This document shows positions 10,816-50,822 of a DNA stretch of 64,000 nucleotides, in pieces. The notes beneath the pieces were generated by a model. That model saw only the letters and a list, made by a program, of their open reading frames with translations, ran no database searches and was not told the DNA's origin. Where the stretch lies: NCBI RefSeq assembly GCF_900699785.1, contig NZ_LR535679.1, forward strand, positions 310,001-374,000, read 5' to 3'. The translations under genes were made by a program, and so were the position numbers. Source of the DNA: Campylobacter showae (GTDB lineage Bacteria; Campylobacterota; Campylobacteria; Campylobacterales; Campylobacteraceae). Position 1 is the stretch's first letter. Each line of letters begins with the position of its first letter.

Positions 10816-11520
10816 TTACTTAAACGCGACAAACGTCGCAAAATTCGCCCATCTAAACATACACTCCACGTTTCTAAACCCCACATTAAGCGCCAAATTT
10901 CTATTTTCCGCTTCAGTGTATGGTATAAGCACGTTTTCTAGCGCCTCGCGTTTTTGCGAGATCTCGTAGCGCGAGTAGCCTTGTTCGAGCTTGTATTTTT
11001 CGTAGATTTCGATCATATTTTTGCTTAGCATCTTGTCCTCAAAAATGAGCTTCTCGCTAAAAACAAACACGCCGCCGTCATTTATCGCGCGGTAAATTTT
11101 AGCTACGAAATCCTGACGCTTAGGCGGGCGGATAAACTGCAGCGTATAGTTCATCAAAACGGCGCCCTGCGCGTCAAATCCGCACTCTAAAATGTCCGCT
11201 AGCTCAAGCTCGATCCTAGCGCCGTAGGCCTCTATCTTGGCGCGCGCGTTTTGCAGCATGGCAGGCGCGTTATCCACGCCTTTTAGCGCGAGATCGCTTC
11301 TTTTGCTCCAAAGGGCTAGCAGCGTCGAGGCCGTCGAGCAGCCAAGGTCTATCGCGCTTGCTCCTTGCGGTAAAATTTGCGCTAAAAAATCGGCGATCAG
11401 CTTTTGCGAAGCCTCGTAATACGGCACCGAGCGCCCGATCATATCGTCAAACACCGACGCCACGCTCGCGTCAAATTCAAACTGCTTTTTTATCGGCTCT
11501 TTAAAGATTTCATCCTTCAC
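10816..11520 (-). CDS. cmoA: Carboxy-S-adenosyl-L-methionine synthase CmoA
   Basis: CmoA converts S-adenosylmethionine and prephenate to carboxy-SAM, which CmoB uses to make 5-oxyacetyl-uridine at tRNA position 34. The 234-residue protein shows the family N-terminus (FDASVASVFDDMIGRSVPYY), the SAM-binding loop AIDLGCSTASTLLAL, and MNYTLQFI. It starts at GTG 11520, which overlaps the ribF stop (GTGA), with AAGGAG six bases upstream. It is the last gene of the nine-gene minus-strand operon, the same position I recall for it in C. jejuni. No clear terminator is visible after it. Confidence 0.92.
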   Translation of the reverse strand: MKDEIFKEPIKKQFEFDASVASVFDDMIGRSVPYYEASQKLIADFLAQILPQGASAIDLGCSTASTLLALWSKRSDLALKGVDNAPAMLQNARAKIEAYGARIELELADILECGFDAQGAVLMNYTLQFIRPPKRQDFVAKIYRAINDGGVFVFSEKLIFEDKMLSKNMIEIYEKYKLEQGYSRYEISQKREALENVLIPYTEAENRNLALNVGFRNVECMFRWANFATFVAFK

Positions 11521-12363
11521 GCTTTACTCCTTTGAGGCGTAGCGTCGCCCACGACGTAGAGATCGCACACGCCGACGAACTCCATCGCCTGCTTGATGTC
11601 GATACCAATTTGCTCTTTTAGCTCCTCTAGGCTTTCAAATTTTCGGTTATCGCGCAGCCGTTTGATAAAGCAAACCGCGACGTCGCGGGCACCCTCGATA
11701 TTTTCGTTTAGCACGTGCGTCTCGACGCTAAAGTTGCCGTCCGTGCTCACGCGGTTGCCGATAAAGGTAACCGAGCCGTAGGTCTTGTATCCGATGCGGG
11801 TCCTCGTCGCATATACGCCCTCGCGCGGCAAAAGGTAGTTTTTGATATCCAAATTTAGCGTCGGTACGAGCTCGCGCGACCCGATGCCCTGCCCCTTTAT
11901 CACGCAACCTTCGATAGAGTATTCGCGGCCTAGCAGGCGGTTTGCCTTGTAGATCTCGCCCTGCTTGATATACTCGCGTATAGCCGAGCTATGCACGCCC
12001 ATACCGTCAAAGCAAACCTCGTCTACTACGACCACCTCGCCGTCAAAAATGCGCCGCAAATCATGCTTGTCCCACGCCCTGTTTCGCCCGAAACGAAAAT
12101 CAAATCCCACGACGATTTTTTGCAGATTTTTAAAATCCCGCTTCAAAAGCGCGATAAACTCGTCGCCGCCAAGCCCCTTTATACTTTCAAAATCATACAA
12201 AAAACACGGATAGCTCGAGTACTCGGCGCGCTTTAGCTTTGGCGTGATGTTGGCCTTGTTTTTGTCGATCACGACTAGTCCGCCGTACTCGCCCAGCTGC
12301 TTTAAAAGCTGCTTGTGGCCGCGATGCACGCCGTCAAAGTGCCCGATCGCGACGGAAGTGATA

Positions 12364-15472
<3,109 letters not shown>

Positions 15473-15487
15473 TTAAATTTGCTTTAC

Positions 15488-16624
15488 TTACCACGCCGCG
15501 AGCTTTCTCATCGCGTTTTCCAGCCTAAACATCTGCGCATGCTCGGCCACATCGTGAGTGCGGATGATCTGTGCGCCGTTTCTAAAGGCCTCAAGATGCA
15601 GATAGAGGCTGCCCGGCAAGCGGTCTTTTATCTCGCTGGGGCTATAAAAATTTATGACCGATTTTCTGCTAGCGCCCGCTAAGATCGGTAAACCGAAGCG
15701 TAAAAAGTGCTCCAAATTTTTTATCAAAACCATATTTTGCTCCGCCGTCTTGCCAAAGCCGATTCCCACGTCTAGCACGATATCGCGGCATCCAAGATCC
15801 TGCGCCGCGGCGATCTTAGCCTCAAAAAACGCGTCTATCTCGCCTAACAAATCATCATAATGCGGGTTATCTTGCATATTTTCTGGGCTATTTTGCATGT
15901 GCATGAGACAGTAGCTCGCGCCGTACCGCGCAGCTAGAGAGCAGAGGCTAACGTCGCCCGTGATATCGTTTATCATCTTAAAGCCGTGATTTAGCGCGTA
16001 CTCTAGGCAATACGCATCAAAGCTATCCAGGCTAAATATCGCCTTTTCATGCAAATTTAGGCGGTAAATTTCGGCTACTATCTTTTCAAGCCTGGCAAAT
16101 TCGACCTCGCGTCCGACGTATTTGCTGCCGGGACGCGAGCTAACTGCGCCCACGTCGATATACTCGGCGCCCTGCTCGATCATCGCTTCGATCTTTTCGA
16201 TACCGCTTTTTTCGTTCACGCGGCTTGCGGTGTTAAAGCTATCCTCATTTACGTTTACGACGCCCATTATCTGCGCGCGCTGCGGTTTTTTAAACGGAGA
16301 TTTTAAAAATTTGGCCAAATTTTTTAGACCAAAATCCTGCGCGGACTCTTTTTTGGCAAGTGCATGCACTTGCGCATCGGTAGCCATCAAAAGCGCGACC
16401 GAGTTTGCACCGTTTAAAATCACGTCGCGGTTAGTCACGAGTTCCGCGCCTACACTTAGTGCGTCTTGTTTTAGTATATTTGCGGCAGGCGAGCGCAAAT
16501 CTTTAATCAAAAAAAAGTTGATCGCCGACTTTTTTTTCATCAAATTTCGCCCCTCGTCGCTAGGACGGATAATCTCGCAAATCTCGTTAAAGTCGGTCTG
16601 CGGATTGATTTTAAAAATTTTCAT
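15488..16624 (-). CDS. folP: Dihydropteroate synthase FolP with N-terminal extension
   Basis: FolP joins pterin pyrophosphate to p-aminobenzoate in folate synthesis and is the sulfonamide target. The TIM-barrel motifs are IMGVVNVNEDSFN (about residue 119 on), GAEYIDVGAVSSRPGS, INDITGD, and near the C-terminus ILAGASRKSVINFY. The protein has 378 residues, about 100 more than E. coli FolP; the extra N-terminal region is usual in Campylobacterota. The ATG overlaps the holB stop (ATGA), so it is translationally coupled to holB. Confidence 0.92.
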   Translation of the reverse strand: MKIFKINPQTDFNEICEIIRPSDEGRNLMKKKSAINFFLIKDLRSPAANILKQDALSVGAELVTNRDVILNGANSVALLMATDAQVHALAKKESAQDFGLKNLAKFLKSPFKKPQRAQIMGVVNVNEDSFNTASRVNEKSGIEKIEAMIEQGAEYIDVGAVSSRPGSKYVGREVEFARLEKIVAEIYRLNLHEKAIFSLDSFDAYCLEYALNHGFKMINDITGDVSLCSLAARYGASYCLMHMQNSPENMQDNPHYDDLLGEIDAFFEAKIAAAQDLGCRDIVLDVGIGFGKTAEQNMVLIKNLEHFLRFGLPILAGASRKSVINFYSPSEIKDRLPGSLYLHLEAFRNGAQIIRTHDVAEHAQMFRLENAMRKLAAW

Positions 16625-43882: not shown

Positions 43883-44266
43883 ATGGTTTTTCAAGTCAAA
43901 AGTCCGATTTTAGGCTTTGAGCATATCAAAAGTTACGAACTAAAAGAGCTAGATCAATTTTTCGTAAAGCTTCAAAGCAAGGACGATGAGACGTCTTTTA
44001 CCGCGATAAACCCGTACGCCTTGAGAAATTACGAATTTGATATACCGACGTACTACCAGGAGCTGATGGACATAAACGACAAAAGCGAGCTAAGGATCTA
44101 CAACATCATGGTCGTAAGCACCCCAATCGAGACCTCGACGGTAAATTTCATCGCTCCTATCGTTTGCAATATGACAAACATGACACTCTCTCAAATAGTG
44201 CTTGACGCGTGGGCATATCCGATGTATAAACAGGCCGAAAAAATTTCGGATTTTATAGAAAAATAA
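43883..44266 (+). CDS. fliW: Flagellar assembly factor FliW
   Basis: FliW binds flagellin and the regulator CsrA; free FliW sequesters CsrA and so relieves repression of flaA mRNA. The 127-residue protein begins [20 protein letters not shown] and contains [24 protein letters not shown] and [22 protein letters not shown], both characteristic. The start is ATG 43883, seven bases after AAGGAG (43871-43876); an ATG six bases earlier overlaps that site and is unlikely. It is followed by 29 bases and then the large exported-protein gene. Confidence 0.92.
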
Positions 44267-44295: not shown

Positions 44296-47200
44296 ATGAA
44301 AAACATTAAATTTGCGCTAATTGCGCTTGTGACTTTATCTAGCGGACTTTTTGCCTTTGAGCATGACGGACTGGAACACCCAATAGTATGGAAACAAACC
44401 GGCGCCACTAACGATATCGGAGTATATACAGACATAAAAGAGGGTATGGTAAGAAGGTCTATAGTAGGCAAAGACGGCAAAGAAATGAAACGCATATACG
44501 GCGATATGGATATCATAGGCGCAACCATATCCGTACCGACAAACGGCGGATACAATTATGTGCCGGTAACTGGTACATTATGGAAGGGAACGCTTACTAA
44601 TATTAAGGGTATTGACGATGCAAACTATAGATCGCAATGCACGCAATGGGACAGAAATAATGGTAAATGTACTTTAGACTATTTTAACTCGTCCTATTCT
44701 ACCTTTGATTTTTCAAACAAGCCTACCGAACTAGAAAGAAATCACATAGATGGCAGTAAAGTTATATATGCTAGGCTTTACTGGGCGGGCGGTCTCTCAA
44801 ATCCATGGAATGACCATCCGGCAAGTAACGTTGCAGGACTCAGAAATAAATATCTAAATGGAATTAGCGGCTTTAAATATGTAAGATTTGGTACGCCAGA
44901 CGGAAAAATGCACCGCCTTACCGCAAATCCGGGAGATGTTTATTGGTGGGGAGCTTATGCATGGTACAATACTGCTTATCAAGGCGGAATGTATTTCATG
45001 TACCAAGCTAGCGTCGATGTAACTGATCTTGTTAAAGCAAGCCTAACAAAAGACAAAAGAACCTTTAGCGCCGGAGGCATAAGAACGTCATCCAGCTTAG
45101 ATGACAACAACTGGATGTCGATGTACAGAGACGGCGACTTCAAATCAAGTAGATACTATTTGCCTCCACATTATGGAGGTTGGGCGCTTTTAATAGTTTA
45201 TGATTTTGGTGAAGACGAAAGTGAAAACATAAAACCAAAAAGCGTTAATATTTATGATGGACTTAGAGTTTTAGATCCGTCGGTTAGAACCAATCCAGGC
45301 TCCGTAAGCAAAAATTTGGAATTAAAATTTGAGGGATTCTATACCCCACCTAGTGGCAATGTGAATTCAACTCTTGCCGTTATGAGCTTTGGCGGTAAAT
45401 ACGAAACCGGAAGCGAAGATATACAAGTTTGGGACAAGAATAATAGGAGATATGAATCCGTCACCTCCGGTCAAAATGGAAGCGGAAAACAGTTTAACAG
45501 CACTATAACAAAATTTGGATCAAATATTAACTCTGGAAAAACATACAATAACCAAATGGATTTGGATGTTTTTGACATCAGCGGAAAAATAGGAAACGCA
45601 CAAACTGACGCCTGGATAAACTTAATAGCAAAATCTGAGTGGAACAGCGGCATATTGTACTCCGAAAGAGCAAACGTCGGCTTGGTGGCTTTTTCTACTG
45701 AGCTTTATTCTCCAGAGGTATGCTATGAAGAAACTTTGTTTACAAAAGGCAAAGATGCTCCAGATAGCGAATTTAGAGAAGTAAGTACAAACAAAAACTC
45801 GTATACCAAGGTGGAAAAAGACAGTATACTAAGAGCACAAATTGCAATAAAAAACAAAGGAAACGAGTCGGCCCAGAAACTAACGCTCACCTCAAGCCTA
45901 GAGCAAAAAGGCTCCGAGTATAAGCCAAATACCACATATATAGTAACAAGCGAGCCTATAACTACGACAAAATTTAAAGTAGGCCCACACAATCCAGACA
46001 ACACAGCCTTTCAAACATCGTCTAAAAACCTACTTACTTTTGCTCTCGGAAGCGGGGCGGGTCATATAGGCAGCGCAAATCAAGGCGGTACGATAGATCA
46101 AACAAATCAAGCCTTTATACAATACGATGCAACCTTAAAACAAATAGAAAAATTTCAAGCAAACATATACAGAGCATCCTTTACTAACACAGCTTTAAAT
46201 TTAAGCTTTGAAGGAAAAATAAAAAGATGCGACAATAAAGAATACTATCTTAGCGTCATAGACGTACCTGACGTTAACAACTTTAGAGCTGTAAATAAGA
46301 ACTTTACCAAGGACGGAGATTCGCAAAATCTTTATACTCAAATAGCCAACCGCAAATTTGACATAAAAATAGCCCATTTTGGTAAAGAGACGGCATCTGG
46401 CAATCAGCTATCTAAAACAAATATCGATACAACGGTAGGAGTAGATATAGTAACCACTTGCGCTGCAGGCGGCGTTTCGGTAACACAGCCAATGCAAGTA
46501 GAATTTAAAAAAGGAGAAAACGGTAAGTCTATAGTGGAACTCAAAGACGTACTAATAGAAAAGGCTTATTCAAATTTATACGTACGACTATCTTTTAAAG
46601 ACCCGATATCCAACCAAATCAAAACTAGTTGCGCCTCCGATACGTTTACCGTTAGGCCTAAAGAGTTTAAAATTTATGATACTTCATCAAAAAATATAGT
46701 AAATAACCTTAATTTAATCGGGGGAAGAAAATATCCTAATTTTAGCGCCTTGGCTACAAATGATACAGGCAAACAAGCCGGCGGCTATACAACCATGCTT
46801 CCGGACAGCACAGGCACAAGCTATGCCAGATTTGAACCGACGATACCGCCGACTTGCACTGCCGTTACAAGCCTGCCGATTACTTGGTTTATGACTAAAT
46901 TTACAGATGGTGTAGCTAAGCTTGAAAGATATCATGAGGGTGCAACCGCTATCAAAGATAATAGGGACTTCGTATATAATGAAGTAGGCAATGCGAAGCT
47001 AGTAATACTTGATAACAAATGGACTACGGCAAGCAACGACCAAGCAAATAGCGACTGCATAGCAAATAGCCATAGCAATACCGAATCCAACGGAAAAGTC
47101 GGTTGTAATATCAGATCAGAATTCGACTTTACATTTGACCCACAAGATATCCATATCGACAGCCTCAGGATAAGCGGCTTTAACGGCGGTCCTATGAGCT

Positions 47201-48210
47201 ATATGTCAAATGACATAGCAATGCCCGCAATAGCTACATTTAATGTACAAGCCAGGCTAGGAGATGCCTCGCGCACTATAGCAAGGATGTATACGGCGGG
47301 TTGTTATTCTAAAGATACGCAGTTTACAATGGGAGTAGATACGGGCATAGCTGACCTAAACGATCGAAATAACGTCAAAACTCCGCTACCTGCCGCCGCA
47401 AGTGCTCGGATTTTATTTTTTAACGATGGCGACAATCCGCAAGTAGTAAAAAGAGATGGCGCAAATAATAACTCGGGAGTCTATAACGTACCTAGTAATG
47501 CATTTACAAATGGTCAATTGATAGGCGGGCAAGTTAAATTTAATTTCGCTAGAGTAGTAACGGATCCGATAAATCCATTTACCGTAAATAGCAATATATT
47601 TACCTTCACAAATGTAAGGGAGCAAGTAAATACCGCTGCCGTGCCTAATACCTATGTCAAACCGCTAGCAGCCAATGAGACGGCTACTCAGTTCTACTAC
47701 GGAATGGTATATGCGCCGTACTATGAAGGCCCTAGACGAGGCTTTAATGCCAATGTATATTTTGGCGTGTATTGCAATGCGTGCGATAAAACTATCTACA
47801 CATTAGCAAACGGTCAGACATTGCCATCCGTCACAAACTGGTTTACAAACGAATCCCATATCGATAACACGTATGGACAAGTAAACGCATATGTTCAGAG
47901 TTCAGGTGCCGGCACTGTTACCATAACGCCTCAAACCATAGCAAATGGCGTTCAGATTTTAACCCTATCTGATACCCAAGCCGAGCTTGTGGATATAGAT
48001 ATGCAGGCGTCAAGTTGGCTCATCTACAACAAAACAAATGCAGCTGCGACGGTTAATAGATTTCAAGTAAATTTCTTCGATAGGCCTAGATGGGGCGGTC
48101 AAGCCCTGGGACAAAAAGGAGATAATCTTAATGGCCCCGGCAATGTACTAGATACTGAAGACGGTTCGTTAAATTACTCCATAAAGACCAATAAAAGGTC
48201 GGATTGGTAA
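44296..48210 (+). CDS. Large exported protein, MshQ/PilY1-like candidate pilus-associated adhesin
   Basis: This 1304-residue protein has a signal peptide (MKNIKFALIALVTLSSGLFA) and no later membrane helix. The first third resembles DUF11/DUF3344-type surface domains: ARLYWAGGLSNPW near residue 159, a VDVTDLVKA segment near 240, HYGGWALLIVYDFGEDES near 291-306 and NIYDGLRVL near 318. A strand-rich middle follows (KVEKDSILRAQIAIKNKGNES). The last third, including FYYGMVYAPYYEGPRRG and NANVYFGVYCNACD near 1135-1165, has the look of the C-terminal region of MSHA protein MshQ (DUF6701), though similarity by eye is weak. Cys residues occur in separated pairs. Three prepilin genes follow at once, so a role at a pilus or pseudopilus tip is the best inference. 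It is A/T-richer than its neighbours. Confidence 0.6.
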   Translation: MKNIKFALIALVTLSSGLFAFEHDGLEHPIVWKQTGATNDIGVYTDIKEGMVRRSIVGKDGKEMKRIYGDMDIIGATISVPTNGGYNYVPVTGTLWKGTLTNIKGIDDANYRSQCTQWDRNNGKCTLDYFNSSYSTFDFSNKPTELERNHIDGSKVIYARLYWAGGLSNPWNDHPASNVAGLRNKYLNGISGFKYVRFGTPDGKMHRLTANPGDVYWWGAYAWYNTAYQGGMYFMYQASVDVTDLVKASLTKDKRTFSAGGIRTSSSLDDNNWMSMYRDGDFKSSRYYLPPHYGGWALLIVYDFGEDESENIKPKSVNIYDGLRVLDPSVRTNPGSVSKNLELKFEGFYTPPSGNVNSTLAVMSFGGKYETGSEDIQVWDKNNRRYESVTSGQNGSGKQFNSTITKFGSNINSGKTYNNQMDLDVFDISGKIGNAQTDAWINLIAKSEWNSGILYSERANVGLVAFSTELYSPEVCYEETLFTKGKDAPDSEFREVSTNKNSYTKVEKDSILRAQIAIKNKGNESAQKLTLTSSLEQKGSEYKPNTTYIVTSEPITTTKFKVGPHNPDNTAFQTSSKNLLTFALGSGAGHIGSANQGGTIDQTNQAFIQYDATLKQIEKFQANIYRASFTNTALNLSFEGKIKRCDNKEYYLSVIDVPDVNNFRAVNKNFTKDGDSQNLYTQIANRKFDIKIAHFGKETASGNQLSKTNIDTTVGVDIVTTCAAGGVSVTQPMQVEFKKGENGKSIVELKDVLIEKAYSNLYVRLSFKDPISNQIKTSCASDTFTVRPKEFKIYDTSSKNIVNNLNLIGGRKYPNFSALATNDTGKQAGGYTTMLPDSTGTSYARFEPTIPPTCTAVTSLPITWFMTKFTDGVAKLERYHEGATAIKDNRDFVYNEVGNAKLVILDNKWTTASNDQANSDCIANSHSNTESNGKVGCNIRSEFDFTFDPQDIHIDSLRISGFNGGPMSYMSNDIAMPAIATFNVQARLGDASRTIARMYTAGCYSKDTQFTMGVDTGIADLNDRNNVKTPLPAAASARILFFNDGDNPQVVKRDGANNNSGVYNVPSNAFTNGQLIGGQVKFNFARVVTDPINPFTVNSNIFTFTNVREQVNTAAVPNTYVKPLAANETATQFYYGMVYAPYYEGPRRGFNANVYFGVYCNACDKTIYTLANGQTLPSVTNWFTNESHIDNTYGQVNAYVQSSGAGTVTITPQTIANGVQILTLSDTQAELVDIDMQASSWLIYNKTNAAATVNRFQVNFFDRPRWGGQALGQKGDNLNGPGNVLDTEDGSLNYSIKTNKRSDW

Positions 48211-48213
48211 AAC

Positions 48214-48852
48214 ATGAGAAGAGGCTTTTCGCTAATAGAATTAATTTTATCTATAGTCGTAGTTGGGATATCTGTAATAGCTATCCCAAAAGTTTTATCG
48301 CAGACGACAAGCAATAATCAACGCGGATTAATGCAGCAAAGCGTAATGGATACCAAAACAAGAATGGCGCTAGTATTAAAATCACCCTATGCTTGCGTAG
48401 GCAACTTATTGTCTATTACTAGTGACAAAACTCCTATTTTTGGCAATACGGTCGGGATACCGGGCAATAATTTTTATACCATAAACGGCATCGTAGCAGA
48501 TGTAGGCACTAGACGCCAATTTGGAAACTACAAAACAAACGCAGCTATAGCCCCTCAACCATGCACTGATCCAAATGATGTAAGCGTAAATTCATTTAAT
48601 ACCAATGTAGACGGCGTAGAACCGATCAAAATACAAACATCTCAGCTATACGGTAGCCGAGATAACATAATTAGCTCAACCATCAACACGACAACACAAC
48701 AAAGAGACATGCAAGGTGCGGCAGATAGTGATATAACCGAGATAATTATGACTACCACGACGGCTATGGGCAACGATATTCAAAATATAATCTTAAGAGC
48801 ATATGCTGCAAATATAGGCGATAGTCCCAACATACTATCAAGGTCTTGGTGA
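48214..48852 (+). CDS. Prepilin-like protein 1 (MshD/PilV/GspI-type candidate)
   Basis: This 212-residue protein starts MRRGFSLIELILSIVVVGIS, a type III signal: basic leader, Gly before the cleavage site, Phe+1 and Glu+5, then a hydrophobic helix. The body has two cysteines (AC in YACVGNLL and in QPCTDPND) and an open polar C-terminus. It starts three bases after the stop of the large exported protein and ends six bases before the next prepilin gene. Minor-pilin type cannot be fixed by eye; the place in the cluster suggests a PilV/MshD-like role. Confidence 0.8.
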   Translation: MRRGFSLIELILSIVVVGISVIAIPKVLSQTTSNNQRGLMQQSVMDTKTRMALVLKSPYACVGNLLSITSDKTPIFGNTVGIPGNNFYTINGIVADVGTRRQFGNYKTNAAIAPQPCTDPNDVSVNSFNTNVDGVEPIKIQTSQLYGSRDNIISSTINTTTQQRDMQGAADSDITEIIMTTTTAMGNDIQNIILRAYAANIGDSPNILSRSW

Positions 48853-48858
48853 TATGAT

Positions 48859-49779
48859 ATGAAAAAAGCCTTTACATTGATAGAGCTTATTCTTGTAATA
48901 GTTATATTGGGAATATTGTCTTTTGCGGGTATTAATATAATAAAAAATTTGTATGAAAACTATCTACAAGCAAGATCCGTAAACACTCTAGAAACGCAAA
49001 CAGAACTTGTTTTAGAACAAATTTCAAAAAGACTTGCAGTTAGAGTAAAAGGCTCAACAATAGGAAGACAAGCATCTACTGGTAATTTCGTATCGACAAG
49101 AGATCCTGCCCTTAATGTCCAATATAACATATTAGAGTGGATAACATATAGCTACGAGAGCTTTCAAAACGGAGGTTGGAGCGGCTTTGTGGATTTAGAC
49201 GATCCCGCCACAGTAGCCAATGCCGCAAGAAATGGCGGAAATTTGGCAACTCATGGAAGCACGCTAAATAGTGCAAATTTAGATATATCTGATTTAACAA
49301 ACGGACGTGCTACGCTCAATAACAACCAAGTTGGATTATTTTTCAAAGGTCGACCAACTAACATAAATACCGACTTTGGATTTAATACTGCTACAAACCA
49401 AGCAAATGCGATAGCTATAGCTACGCAAAACGGAAATGATGTATTAACTATCGCCAACTATGCATCCACGGATATTTTTGAACAATATTATTTATTACAT
49501 ACCGCCTACGCAGTTGTTCCGACCGTTAGCCTTAATCCGGGCGGCACAAGCGGTACGGATCTTGATCTATGGCTACACTATAACTACAGACCGTGGGCCG
49601 GTCAGGACTACAATGACAATGGCACAAGCAGGGATTTGCTTGCCAGAAACGTGACTAGGTTTAACTTCACGGAAGACAATGGCGTCATAGTTATAAAACT
49701 ATGCATAAGAGACGCCGGAAGATCGTTGGGGCCGACTAGAGCCGAAACAACGGTGTGTAAAACAAAGGCGGTGTATTAA
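48859..49779 (+). CDS. Prepilin-like protein 2 (PilW/MshO/GspJ-type candidate)
   Basis: This 306-residue protein begins MKKAFTLIELILVIVILGIL, with Ala before the cleavage site, Phe+1 and Glu+5. The larger size and the fold rhythm (LETQTELVLEQISKRLAVRV after the helix, a long polar body, FTEDNGVIVIKLCIRDAG near the C-terminus) fit the GspJ/PilW/MshO class, the largest minor pilins. Two Cys lie near the end (KLCIRDAG, TTVCKTKA) and probably pair. It overlaps the next gene by one base (TAATG). Confidence 0.82.
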   Translation: MKKAFTLIELILVIVILGILSFAGINIIKNLYENYLQARSVNTLETQTELVLEQISKRLAVRVKGSTIGRQASTGNFVSTRDPALNVQYNILEWITYSYESFQNGGWSGFVDLDDPATVANAARNGGNLATHGSTLNSANLDISDLTNGRATLNNNQVGLFFKGRPTNINTDFGFNTATNQANAIAIATQNGNDVLTIANYASTDIFEQYYLLHTAYAVVPTVSLNPGGTSGTDLDLWLHYNYRPWAGQDYNDNGTSRDLLARNVTRFNFTEDNGVIVIKLCIRDAGRSLGPTRAETTVCKTKAVY

Positions 49780-50234
49780 TGAGAAAAGGTTTTAGTTTAA
49801 TCACGGCGATAATTTTTATGGTTTTGATAGCAACTTTATCTATGTTTGCGCTAAATATCTCCTCTCTGACCTCAAAACAAACAACCGACGTATTTTTAAG
49901 AGAGCAGGCAGAGCTTTTAGCTCAAAGCGCCACAGAGGTAGCTATCCTCAATCTTTTAAGGATGAATTTTAGCACAAATTGCCCGTTAAATTTACCCAAT
50001 AGAAATATAGTAAATACCTCATTTCCAAACAACGCTACGCCGATGTTTCGAGTTACGGTAACACTAGAAAGGTTATTTGGTACCTTTGGAGCTTGCAATC
50101 AACCAAATGCCGCAAACCCGGCCCTTAACCATGCTGCATCTGCAGGAACGGTAATATTAGACGTAGTAGTTACTCAAGCAAACGCAAATATGCCGCCGAT
50201 AAGAATTCACAGACGCACGATTCAAAAACTCTAA
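49779..50234 (+). CDS. Prepilin-like protein 3 lacking Glu+5 (PilX/MshP/GspK-type candidate)
   Basis: This 151-residue protein begins MRKGFSLITAIIFMVLIATL. It has the Gly/Phe cleavage site, but position +5 is Thr instead of Glu. Loss of Glu+5 is common in PilX, MshP and GspK proteins, which cap the pilus tip and cannot take the regular Glu contact with the next subunit. Further on, QAELLAQSATEVAILNLLRM matches the helix that follows in this class. Cys residues at about 69 and 108 may pair. It is the last gene of the cluster; about 50 bases later the hpf promoter begins. Confidence 0.78.
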   Translation: MRKGFSLITAIIFMVLIATLSMFALNISSLTSKQTTDVFLREQAELLAQSATEVAILNLLRMNFSTNCPLNLPNRNIVNTSFPNNATPMFRVTVTLERLFGTFGACNQPNAANPALNHAASAGTVILDVVVTQANANMPPIRIHRRTIQKL

Positions 50235-50282: not shown

Positions 50283-50822
50283 ATGATGAATCTAAGCATC
50301 GTAGGTAAACAATTCAACCTAACGGACCCAATCAAACAGCACATAGAAAACGCATTTGATGCGCTTAACAAATACGGACTGGATATAATTTCAGGTCGCT
50401 GCGTAGTTTCAGCGGACGAAAAAAACGGTAAAAAGGGTTTTAGCGTAGAGTTTGCGCTAAATTTAGCAAAAAAAGACACGATCGTAATCCACCACAAAGA
50501 TAAAGATCTGTACGCTGCGGTAGATCTTGCGCTTGAGCGCGCATCAAAGGTGCTTCGCCGCGAGCACGACAAAAACACAACCATGAAAAATAAAGACGAC
50601 GGCAAAGCTGTTAGAGCTGCGATCGCCGACGAACACCACATAAACGACGGCGAAGTAGATGAGATAATCCCTATGGAGCTTGAGCTATACAAGCCGCTAG
50701 AGATCGAGGAGGCTATGCAAAAGCTAAAAGATAGCGATGCGCAGTTTTATGTATTTAACGATATGGATGCCAAAATGCGCGTAATCTATAAACGCTCTGA
50801 CGGTAAATTCGGACTTTATTAA
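50283..50822 (+). CDS. hpf: Ribosome hibernation-promoting factor, long form
   Basis: HPF binds the 30S decoding site in stationary phase and drives 100S dimer formation. The 179-residue protein has the N-terminal beta-alpha domain (MNLSIVGKQFNLTDPIKQHI, with KDLYAAVDLALERASKVLRR) and the C-terminal dimerising domain (KPLEIEEAMQKLKDSDAQFYVFNDMDAK), so it is the long type. Two ATGs stand side by side at 50283 and 50286; either could be used. It has its own promoter and a good terminator. Confidence 0.93.
   Translation: MMNLSIVGKQFNLTDPIKQHIENAFDALNKYGLDIISGRCVVSADEKNGKKGFSVEFALNLAKKDTIVIHHKDKDLYAAVDLALERASKVLRREHDKNTTMKNKDDGKAVRAAIADEHHINDGEVDEIIPMELELYKPLEIEEAMQKLKDSDAQFYVFNDMDAKMRVIYKRSDGKFGLY

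Follow-up and report, generated by a model that had tools for sequence, protein, structure and literature searches.

A giant exported protein and three prepilins encoded between fliW and hpf in Campylobacter showae: a candidate tip complex for an MSHA-type pilus

RESULTS

A conserved four-gene cluster

We analyzed a 64,000-nucleotide stretch of the Campylobacter showae genome (contig NZ_LR535679.1, positions 310,001 to 374,000; "the window"), in which four plus-strand genes lie between fliW and hpf. The first gene, here called BIG, encodes a 1304-residue protein with a signal-peptide-like start (MKNIKFALIALVTLSSGLFA, read by eye), and the other three, PP1, PP2, and PP3, encode prepilin-like proteins. 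An earlier note, made from this sequence alone, had proposed the cluster as a tip complex resembling that of the mannose-sensitive hemagglutinin (MSHA) pilus; the coordinates and the gaps of 3, 6, and -1 bases between successive genes were as it claimed. BIG is separated from fliW by 29 bases (Table 1). On independent transcription of BIG, which the earlier note had held to count against its proposal, a promoter scan gave 19 sites against 20.2 expected, i.e., chance level. No long homopolymers (6 or more G/C, 8 or more A/T) were found in the module.

The claim that the cluster is not a chance assembly was borne out by its recurrence. Of 26 module loci that were picked in other genomes by their BIG single-query matches, 24 had the order BIG-PP1-PP2-PP3, across several families; of the two exceptions, one has BIG alone (L045) and in the other the contig ends in PP2 (L048). 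Within the genus, the loci are flanked by lon-bamD-fliW and hpf. The BIG single-query search matched 42 of 60 relatives. The PP2 profile matched all 48 genus genomes at E<=0.001 and 46 of these at E<=1e-60, the weak cases being G070 and G017 (helix match only, at a locus that meets a contig end). Across 397 Campylobacterota genomes, PP2 was found in 212 (E<=1e-15), and 182 gave a match to the C-terminal profile of BIG (E<=1e-6). BIG is absent beside the pilins in G070, two g24 loci, and one g26 locus. A literature search, limited for subscription papers, found no paper announcing this module; in their available text, the C. ureolyticus and C. showae genome papers mention pilus genes in general terms, and the latter finds them remarkable in that species.

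Several variant loci were observed. Two tandem BIG genes precede one minor pilin set in G013 (L033) and G014 (L030). Orphan BIG genes with no adjoining minor pilins occur in G291 (L185:7243-9948) and G338 (L186:4179-8084), and both keep the C-terminal Trp motif, the g24 genome G291 protein ending in NRRIDW. Beside the G291 orphan (L185:416-4211), a VSNPTRINLH-like peptide is repeated in several short frames, so an interspersed DNA repeat seems to be present there. G057 (L046:1185-1856, 10876-15744) has a fourth prepilin after PP3 and, upstream of a 2299-residue BIG, a 1622-residue protein with no Pfam match. Outside the genus, G101, G249, G397, and others have two to four BIG C-terminal matches per genome.

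Table 1. Features of the module and its neighbors in the window
Feature	Positions	Strand	Remarks
fliW, upstream neighbor	43883..44266	+	PF02623, E 2.9e-26; conserved start placed by alignment
BIG, 1304-residue exported protein; Ig-like domains modeled; proposed pilus tip protein (MshQ-like role)	44296..48210	+	no Pfam/NCBIfam family
BIG putative signal peptide	44296..44355	+	by eye; relatives start similarly
BIG N-terminal conserved region, about residues 105-475	44608..45720	+	crossover of chimera P0013 near region end
BIG conserved C-terminal 300 residues, last domain Ig-like	47308..48207	+	A2 profile; structure model
BIG C-terminal tail, proposed docking tail	48091..48207	+	low confidence (perhaps disordered); ends KRSDW; last Trp conserved
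PP1, prepilin-like, 212 aa	48214..48852	+	Glu+5; occupies position of CtsT-like gene in jejuni-like loci
PP2, prepilin-like, 306 aa	48859..49779	+	Glu+5; largest of the three minor pilin candidates
PP3, prepilin-like, 151 aa	49779..50234	+	no Glu+5 (GspK-like trait); conserved C-terminal [KR]R..QK
hpf, downstream neighbor	50283..50822	+	PF02482 and PF16321

PP3 lacks the glutamate found in PP1 and PP2

The earlier note had read prepilin signals in all three small proteins. PP1 and PP2 both passed the Pfam N_methyl and NCBIfam IV_pilin_GFxxxE models. The N terminus of PP3 (MRKG/FSLIT) has Phe at +1 and a hydrophobic helix, but it lacks Glu at +5 and had no N_methyl match in the Pfam scan. In representative loci, Glu+5 was missing from PP3 in 15 of 15 and present in PP1 and PP2 in 16 of 16. 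Absence of Glu+5 is a trait of tip prepilins such as GspK. PP3 matched the GspK model weakly and below its cut-off (E 6e-4; 19.4 bits, cut-off 130), and no GspI or GspJ match was found among the window prepilins in the NCBIfam scan. Matches of PP1 to PP3 to Pfam, NCBIfam, and PDB sequences were confined mainly to the helix region; against PDB sequences, the PP1 and PP2 profiles matched mainly the pilin helix, and the PP3 profile gave no matches.

BIG is predicted to be a chain of Ig-like domains with a conserved C terminus

No Pfam or NCBIfam family matched BIG. The earlier note had suggested a comparison with MshQ/DUF6701 and PilY1, and domain scans found no sequence homology of BIG to either: DUF6701 (PF20419) had no match in the window protein (E<=1) or in 17 A1 members (E<=10), and the PilC/PilY1 C-terminal domain had no Pfam match in BIG or the relatives scanned. 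Searches of PDB sequences with BIG and its profile returned nothing credible. The identical protein P0001 is a hypothetical protein of an uncultured Campylobacter. Calx-beta, cadherin-like, Big_9, or DUF11 domains were found in four of six more distant or divergent BIG relatives, mostly in the N-terminal part.

The predicted structure of BIG is a chain of beta/Ig-like domains followed by a low-confidence C-terminal tail, and in a fold search this Ig-type model resembled surface adhesins. The earlier note had made its proposal depend on such a likeness of the large protein to pilus-tip or surface adhesins, and the multi-Ig-type model provides it. Structures of PilY1, MshQ, and GspJ were not among the fold matches listed; this is no evidence of absence, and the MshQ structure is perhaps unsolved. 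Family members range from 798 residues to a 4079-residue frame, and the last residue was Trp in 138 of 146 BIG sequences. BIG appears to be MshQ-like by role and place and, by the tests run, is not a member of the MshQ (DUF6701) or PilY1 family. BIG and its relatives make up a large family of exported proteins in which the front is exchangeable and the end fixed; no Pfam or NCBIfam name was found for it.

An MSH-type machine co-occurs with the module

The pilus machinery was examined in relatives, chiefly in G001, the nearest genome compared. G001 has one secretin found and one A24_N prepilin peptidase, about 28 kb apart. The secretin passed the MshL model TIGR02519 (281.2 bits, cut-off 250.2) and fell below the cut-offs for GspD (169.1, cut-off 351.35) and PilQ (137.4, cut-off 284.35). 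Its operon (L042) encodes, in order, proteins with the domains PilO/T2SSM; none (140 aa); Secretin plus Secretin_N_2; AAA_22; a weak TPR-type ANAPC3 (below cut-off); MshEN plus T2SSE; and T2SSF, an order which we take to resemble mshJ-K-L-M-N-E-G. The MshE-type ATPase, MshG (T2SSF), and MshM (AAA) were assigned in these neighboring genes by domain content only, the best NCBIfam names being GspE and GspF, below cut-off. Directly after the operon (L042:2879-4654) lie a PAS-domain gene and a chemoreceptor-like gene, presumably a CetB/CetA-like pair.

G001 also encodes a PilT-family ATPase (L074; 444.8 bits, cut-off 319.1) and, in a candidate major pilin locus at L075:6447-7890, three major-pilin-like prepilins in a row; for the one of these that was scanned, the best model was GspG (44.5 bits, cut-off 88.85). 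Tip genes, pilins, and machine are at separate places of G001 rather than in a single locus, the usual but not obligatory arrangement of MSH systems, and the machine locus contains no prepilin peptidase, as for MSH systems. When 13 G001 machine and pilin proteins were searched against the window, the helix of PP2 was the sole match. The search for a prepilin peptidase, secretin, and assembly ATPase elsewhere in the genome, which the earlier note had proposed, thus found all three in this relative, and the lack of a peptidase that it had held to count against a tip complex did not occur. With the MshL-type secretin, the MSH-type operon, and the multi-Ig-type model of BIG, these findings uphold its MSHA-like proposal. 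In the available text of Denise et al. (2019, PMC6668835), the mandatory MSH genes are mshA, E, G, L, and M, and MSH systems are reported in Epsilonproteobacteria; the system type is therefore already known in the phylum, and the tip module is what is added.

Co-occurrence was scored in the 397 genomes. MshL (E<=1e-60) was present in 314 (282 over the cut-off) and PilT (E<=1e-90) in 226 (225 over the cut-off). PilT was lacking in none of the 182 genomes with BIG and none of the 212 with PP2. The 314 MshL genomes comprised 173 with PilT and BIG, 41 with PilT only, 0 with BIG only, and 100 with neither; by genus majority, the same classes held 34, 10, 0, and 9 of 53 genera (Fisher p 2e-5). However, the PilT-less MshL genomes come from genus g23 and from genera in family f13, so that few independent losses are represented. 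Nine BIG genomes, G035 among them, had no MshL match at E<=1e-60. Many PilT-bearing genomes have two PilT-family genes.

Module and machine decayed together in G035

G035 lacks the assembly operon at the expected site, where the flanking genes are 96-99% identical to those of G010 (80 kb searched). Only 65 residues from the start of the first gene and 92 from the end of the last remain, and no MshL match was found in the whole genome at E<=1e-60. The G035 BIG frame is severed from its first 125 residues, the signal peptide among them, and PP2 has an in-frame stop. The counterpart genes are open in G003, which shares 97% identity with G035 in BIG and 99% in PP1. G035 retains PilT. This joint decay, a single case, ties the module to the machine.

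Alleles of the module are exchanged

The window and G001 were compared at eight flanking genes, among them lon, bamD, fliW, hpf, hemH, and alaS; rpsR, a ninth, fell beyond the stretch compared. The eight differ by 0.07-0.44 synonymous substitutions per site (dS), with 92.5-100% protein identity. For BIG, PP1, PP2, and PP3, dS was 1.18-2.10, the nonsynonymous rate (dN) 0.25-0.39, and identity 56-67%. Such high dS in the module beside conserved flanks points to replacement by a distant allele and not to selection only. GC content at third codon positions was 0.34-0.37 in the module versus 0.47-0.60 in six flanking genes.

Among 32 close pairs from 17 loci (lon at least 95.5% identical; better match used where two BIG genes were present), BIG was only 39-66% identical in 30, the exceptions being G003/G035 (97%) and G025/G023 (82%). 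In G014/G018 the whole module differs (lon 100%, BIG 42%, PP1 43%), and in G018/G023 mainly BIG does (BIG 40%, PP1 81%, PP2 86%, PP3 94%). Protein P0013 is a chimera: in 100-residue windows, its N-terminal part up to residue 450 is 88-98% identical to the window protein and 33-52% to P0021, and from residue 501 on it is 30-55% identical to the former and 87-97% to the latter.

Jejuni-like loci carry three prepilins but no BIG

All five loci from genus g23 have the order lon-bamD-fliW-proC (242-245 aa), followed by prepilins of 97-104, 208-242, and 144-166 aa and no BIG; a P5CR_dimer match confirmed proC in each of these loci, and also in G354. The ctsT-like prepilin is downstream of proC in each of the five, and the window has BIG at that place and no proC. 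The available text of PMC8308473 gives C. jejuni proC as cj1076 (243 aa) and ctsT as cj1077 (100 aa), and cts genes, ctsT among those assessed, are described as part of the DNA uptake system (PMC10893306, available text). The g23 sizes and order fit these C. jejuni genes, which the earlier note had placed nearby, and we infer that g23 is the jejuni group. G354 bridges the two forms, with fliW-proC-BIG-PP1-PP2-PP3-hpf.

The profile of the second g23 prepilin matched PP2 over 203 columns (E 5e-16), and that of the third matched PP3 over 119 columns (E 1.5e-14); four cross pairs of these two with the PP1 to PP3 profiles covered only 22 to 59 columns. An equation of CtsT with PP1 by sequence was not borne out: the 100-residue prepilin (A9) matched A5 over 39 columns and A3 over 45, in the helix region only and thus PP1 and PP2 alike, so the equation rests on position. 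The g23 genomes listed have MshL and neither BIG nor PilT. The earlier note's view of the module as an insertion between fliW and hpf was rejected, because the module occupies this position throughout the genus loci seen and is also present in other families; instead, the arrangement of fliW, proC, and a 100-residue prepilin looks like a reduced form of the module.

DISCUSSION

The order and distribution of the genes, their co-occurrence with PilT, their decay together with the machine in G035, the replacement of alleles, and the predicted fold class together suggest that the products of the four genes probably form the complex that initiates and tips a retractile MSHA-type pilus, with BIG as an adhesin-like head that can be exchanged. 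PP1 to PP3 would prime the filament in the inner membrane, as minor pilins are reported to prime type IVa pili (PMC9815625, available text), with PP3, lacking Glu+5, at the very end. BIG would be exported by Sec, dock on PP1 to PP3 through its conserved C-terminal region and tail, and be carried outward on the filament end, where PilY1 and MshQ are also proposed to sit, its Ig-like domains forming a rod. An MshL/MshE/MshG-type machine, whose C. jejuni counterpart is Cts, may assemble the filament, and PilT may pull it back. Alleles of BIG, the exchangeable part, would be swapped or shuffled by recombination, with the minor pilins or alone. In the jejuni-like group, BIG and PilT may have been lost, while reduced minor pilins, including one at the ctsT place, were retained for DNA uptake. 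In this scheme, it is complex formation, docking, surface display, binding function, and the direction of loss that we infer.

Some of the distribution does not fit this scheme neatly. In the set of 397, 32 PP2 genomes have no BIG match and 14 PilT genomes have no PP2, and the BIG genomes G162 and G356 have no PP2 match at E<=1e-15. G070 has weak-scoring PP2-like and PilT-like genes and no BIG, and G076, G155, and G089 give weak BIG C-terminal matches, yet no BIG lies beside their pilins.

Three other explanations were weighed. The module might serve natural transformation only, as a DNA uptake pseudopilus with BIG as its DNA-binding tip. The machine corresponds to the Cts uptake system of C. 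jejuni (PMC10893306, PMC8308473, available text), and jejuni-like loci keep three prepilins, the second and third matching PP2 and PP3 over 203 and 119 columns. However, the g23 genomes listed keep MshL without BIG, so that, provided g23 is the jejuni group, uptake there does not require BIG, and the strict tie of BIG to PilT and the adhesin-like Ig-type model also make this explanation unlikely. Somewhat less probable still is a pseudopilus resembling that of type II secretion, for which BIG would be a large substrate to be secreted. The Sec-type start of BIG, the description of Cts as type II secretion-like (PMC10893306, available text), and the first rank of the GspE and GspF models, below their cut-offs, for two components would fit; but the secretin exceeds the MshL and not the GspD cut-off, PilT co-occurs, and BIG stands in fixed order with minor pilins with which it often diverges. 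That BIG is an independent surface protein with pilin genes adjacent by chance is very improbable, as the orphan BIG genes (L045, L185, L186) are set against a gene order that 24 of 26 loci in several families share, with only a few bases between genes, against the lack of any BIG genome without PilT among the 397, and against the joint decay in G035.

The tip complex of a retractile MSHA-type pilus remains our preferred explanation. A wider idea, which we put forward tentatively and hold as possible rather than probable, is that one conserved minor-pilin base takes many giant tip proteins through a shared tag, [KR]-x-(x)-W, at the extreme C terminus. Such plug-in heads would be replaced by recombination as whole modules or alone, domain shuffled, doubled in tandem, or kept as orphans at other genomic sites, and the C. 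jejuni competence machine would be a headless, retraction-less derivative. If so, they would give antigenic, phage-receptor, or ligand variation in Campylobacterota. The locus suggests an origin for the Cts uptake system, as a retractile MSHA-type pilus minus head and retraction motor, and offers a concrete place to ask if type IV pili are made by members of the genus Campylobacter besides C. jejuni.

Among known systems, the MSHA pilus of Vibrio cholerae (MshD/MshO/MshP with MshQ) is similar in the MshL-type secretin and MSH-like operon of G001 and in having three prepilins beside one very large exported protein. MSHA pili are known to be retracted by PilT, and in V. cholerae the loss of MshQ, a putative adhesin, lowers surface MSHA and not retraction (PMC7096442, available text). 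Tip genes, pilins, and machine are apart here, whereas MSH genes are almost exclusively in one locus (PMC6668835, available text). BIG also has no DUF6701 match, and tip alleles are exchanged in the Campylobacter module. The BIG gene comes first in order, whereas the mshQ gene stands last in the MSHA locus.

The type IVa pilus tip likewise consists of a large exported partner, PilY1, and minor pilins (PilV/W/X); unlike PilY1, BIG has no PilC/PilY1 domain found. The type II pseudopilus tip (GspI/J/K) resembles the module in its three minor prepilins, the last without Glu+5, a trait of GspK, and differs in that no GspK match over the cut-off and no GspI or GspJ match was found here; no large partner protein is known there. 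The C. jejuni Cts system differs in that the g23 genomes listed have neither BIG nor PilT and in its first prepilin, of 97-104 aa, with a helix-only match. It shares with the module the MshL-type secretin (in g23), the chromosomal place lon-bamD-fliW, prepilins at the ctsT position, and second and third prepilins that match PP2 and PP3 by profile.

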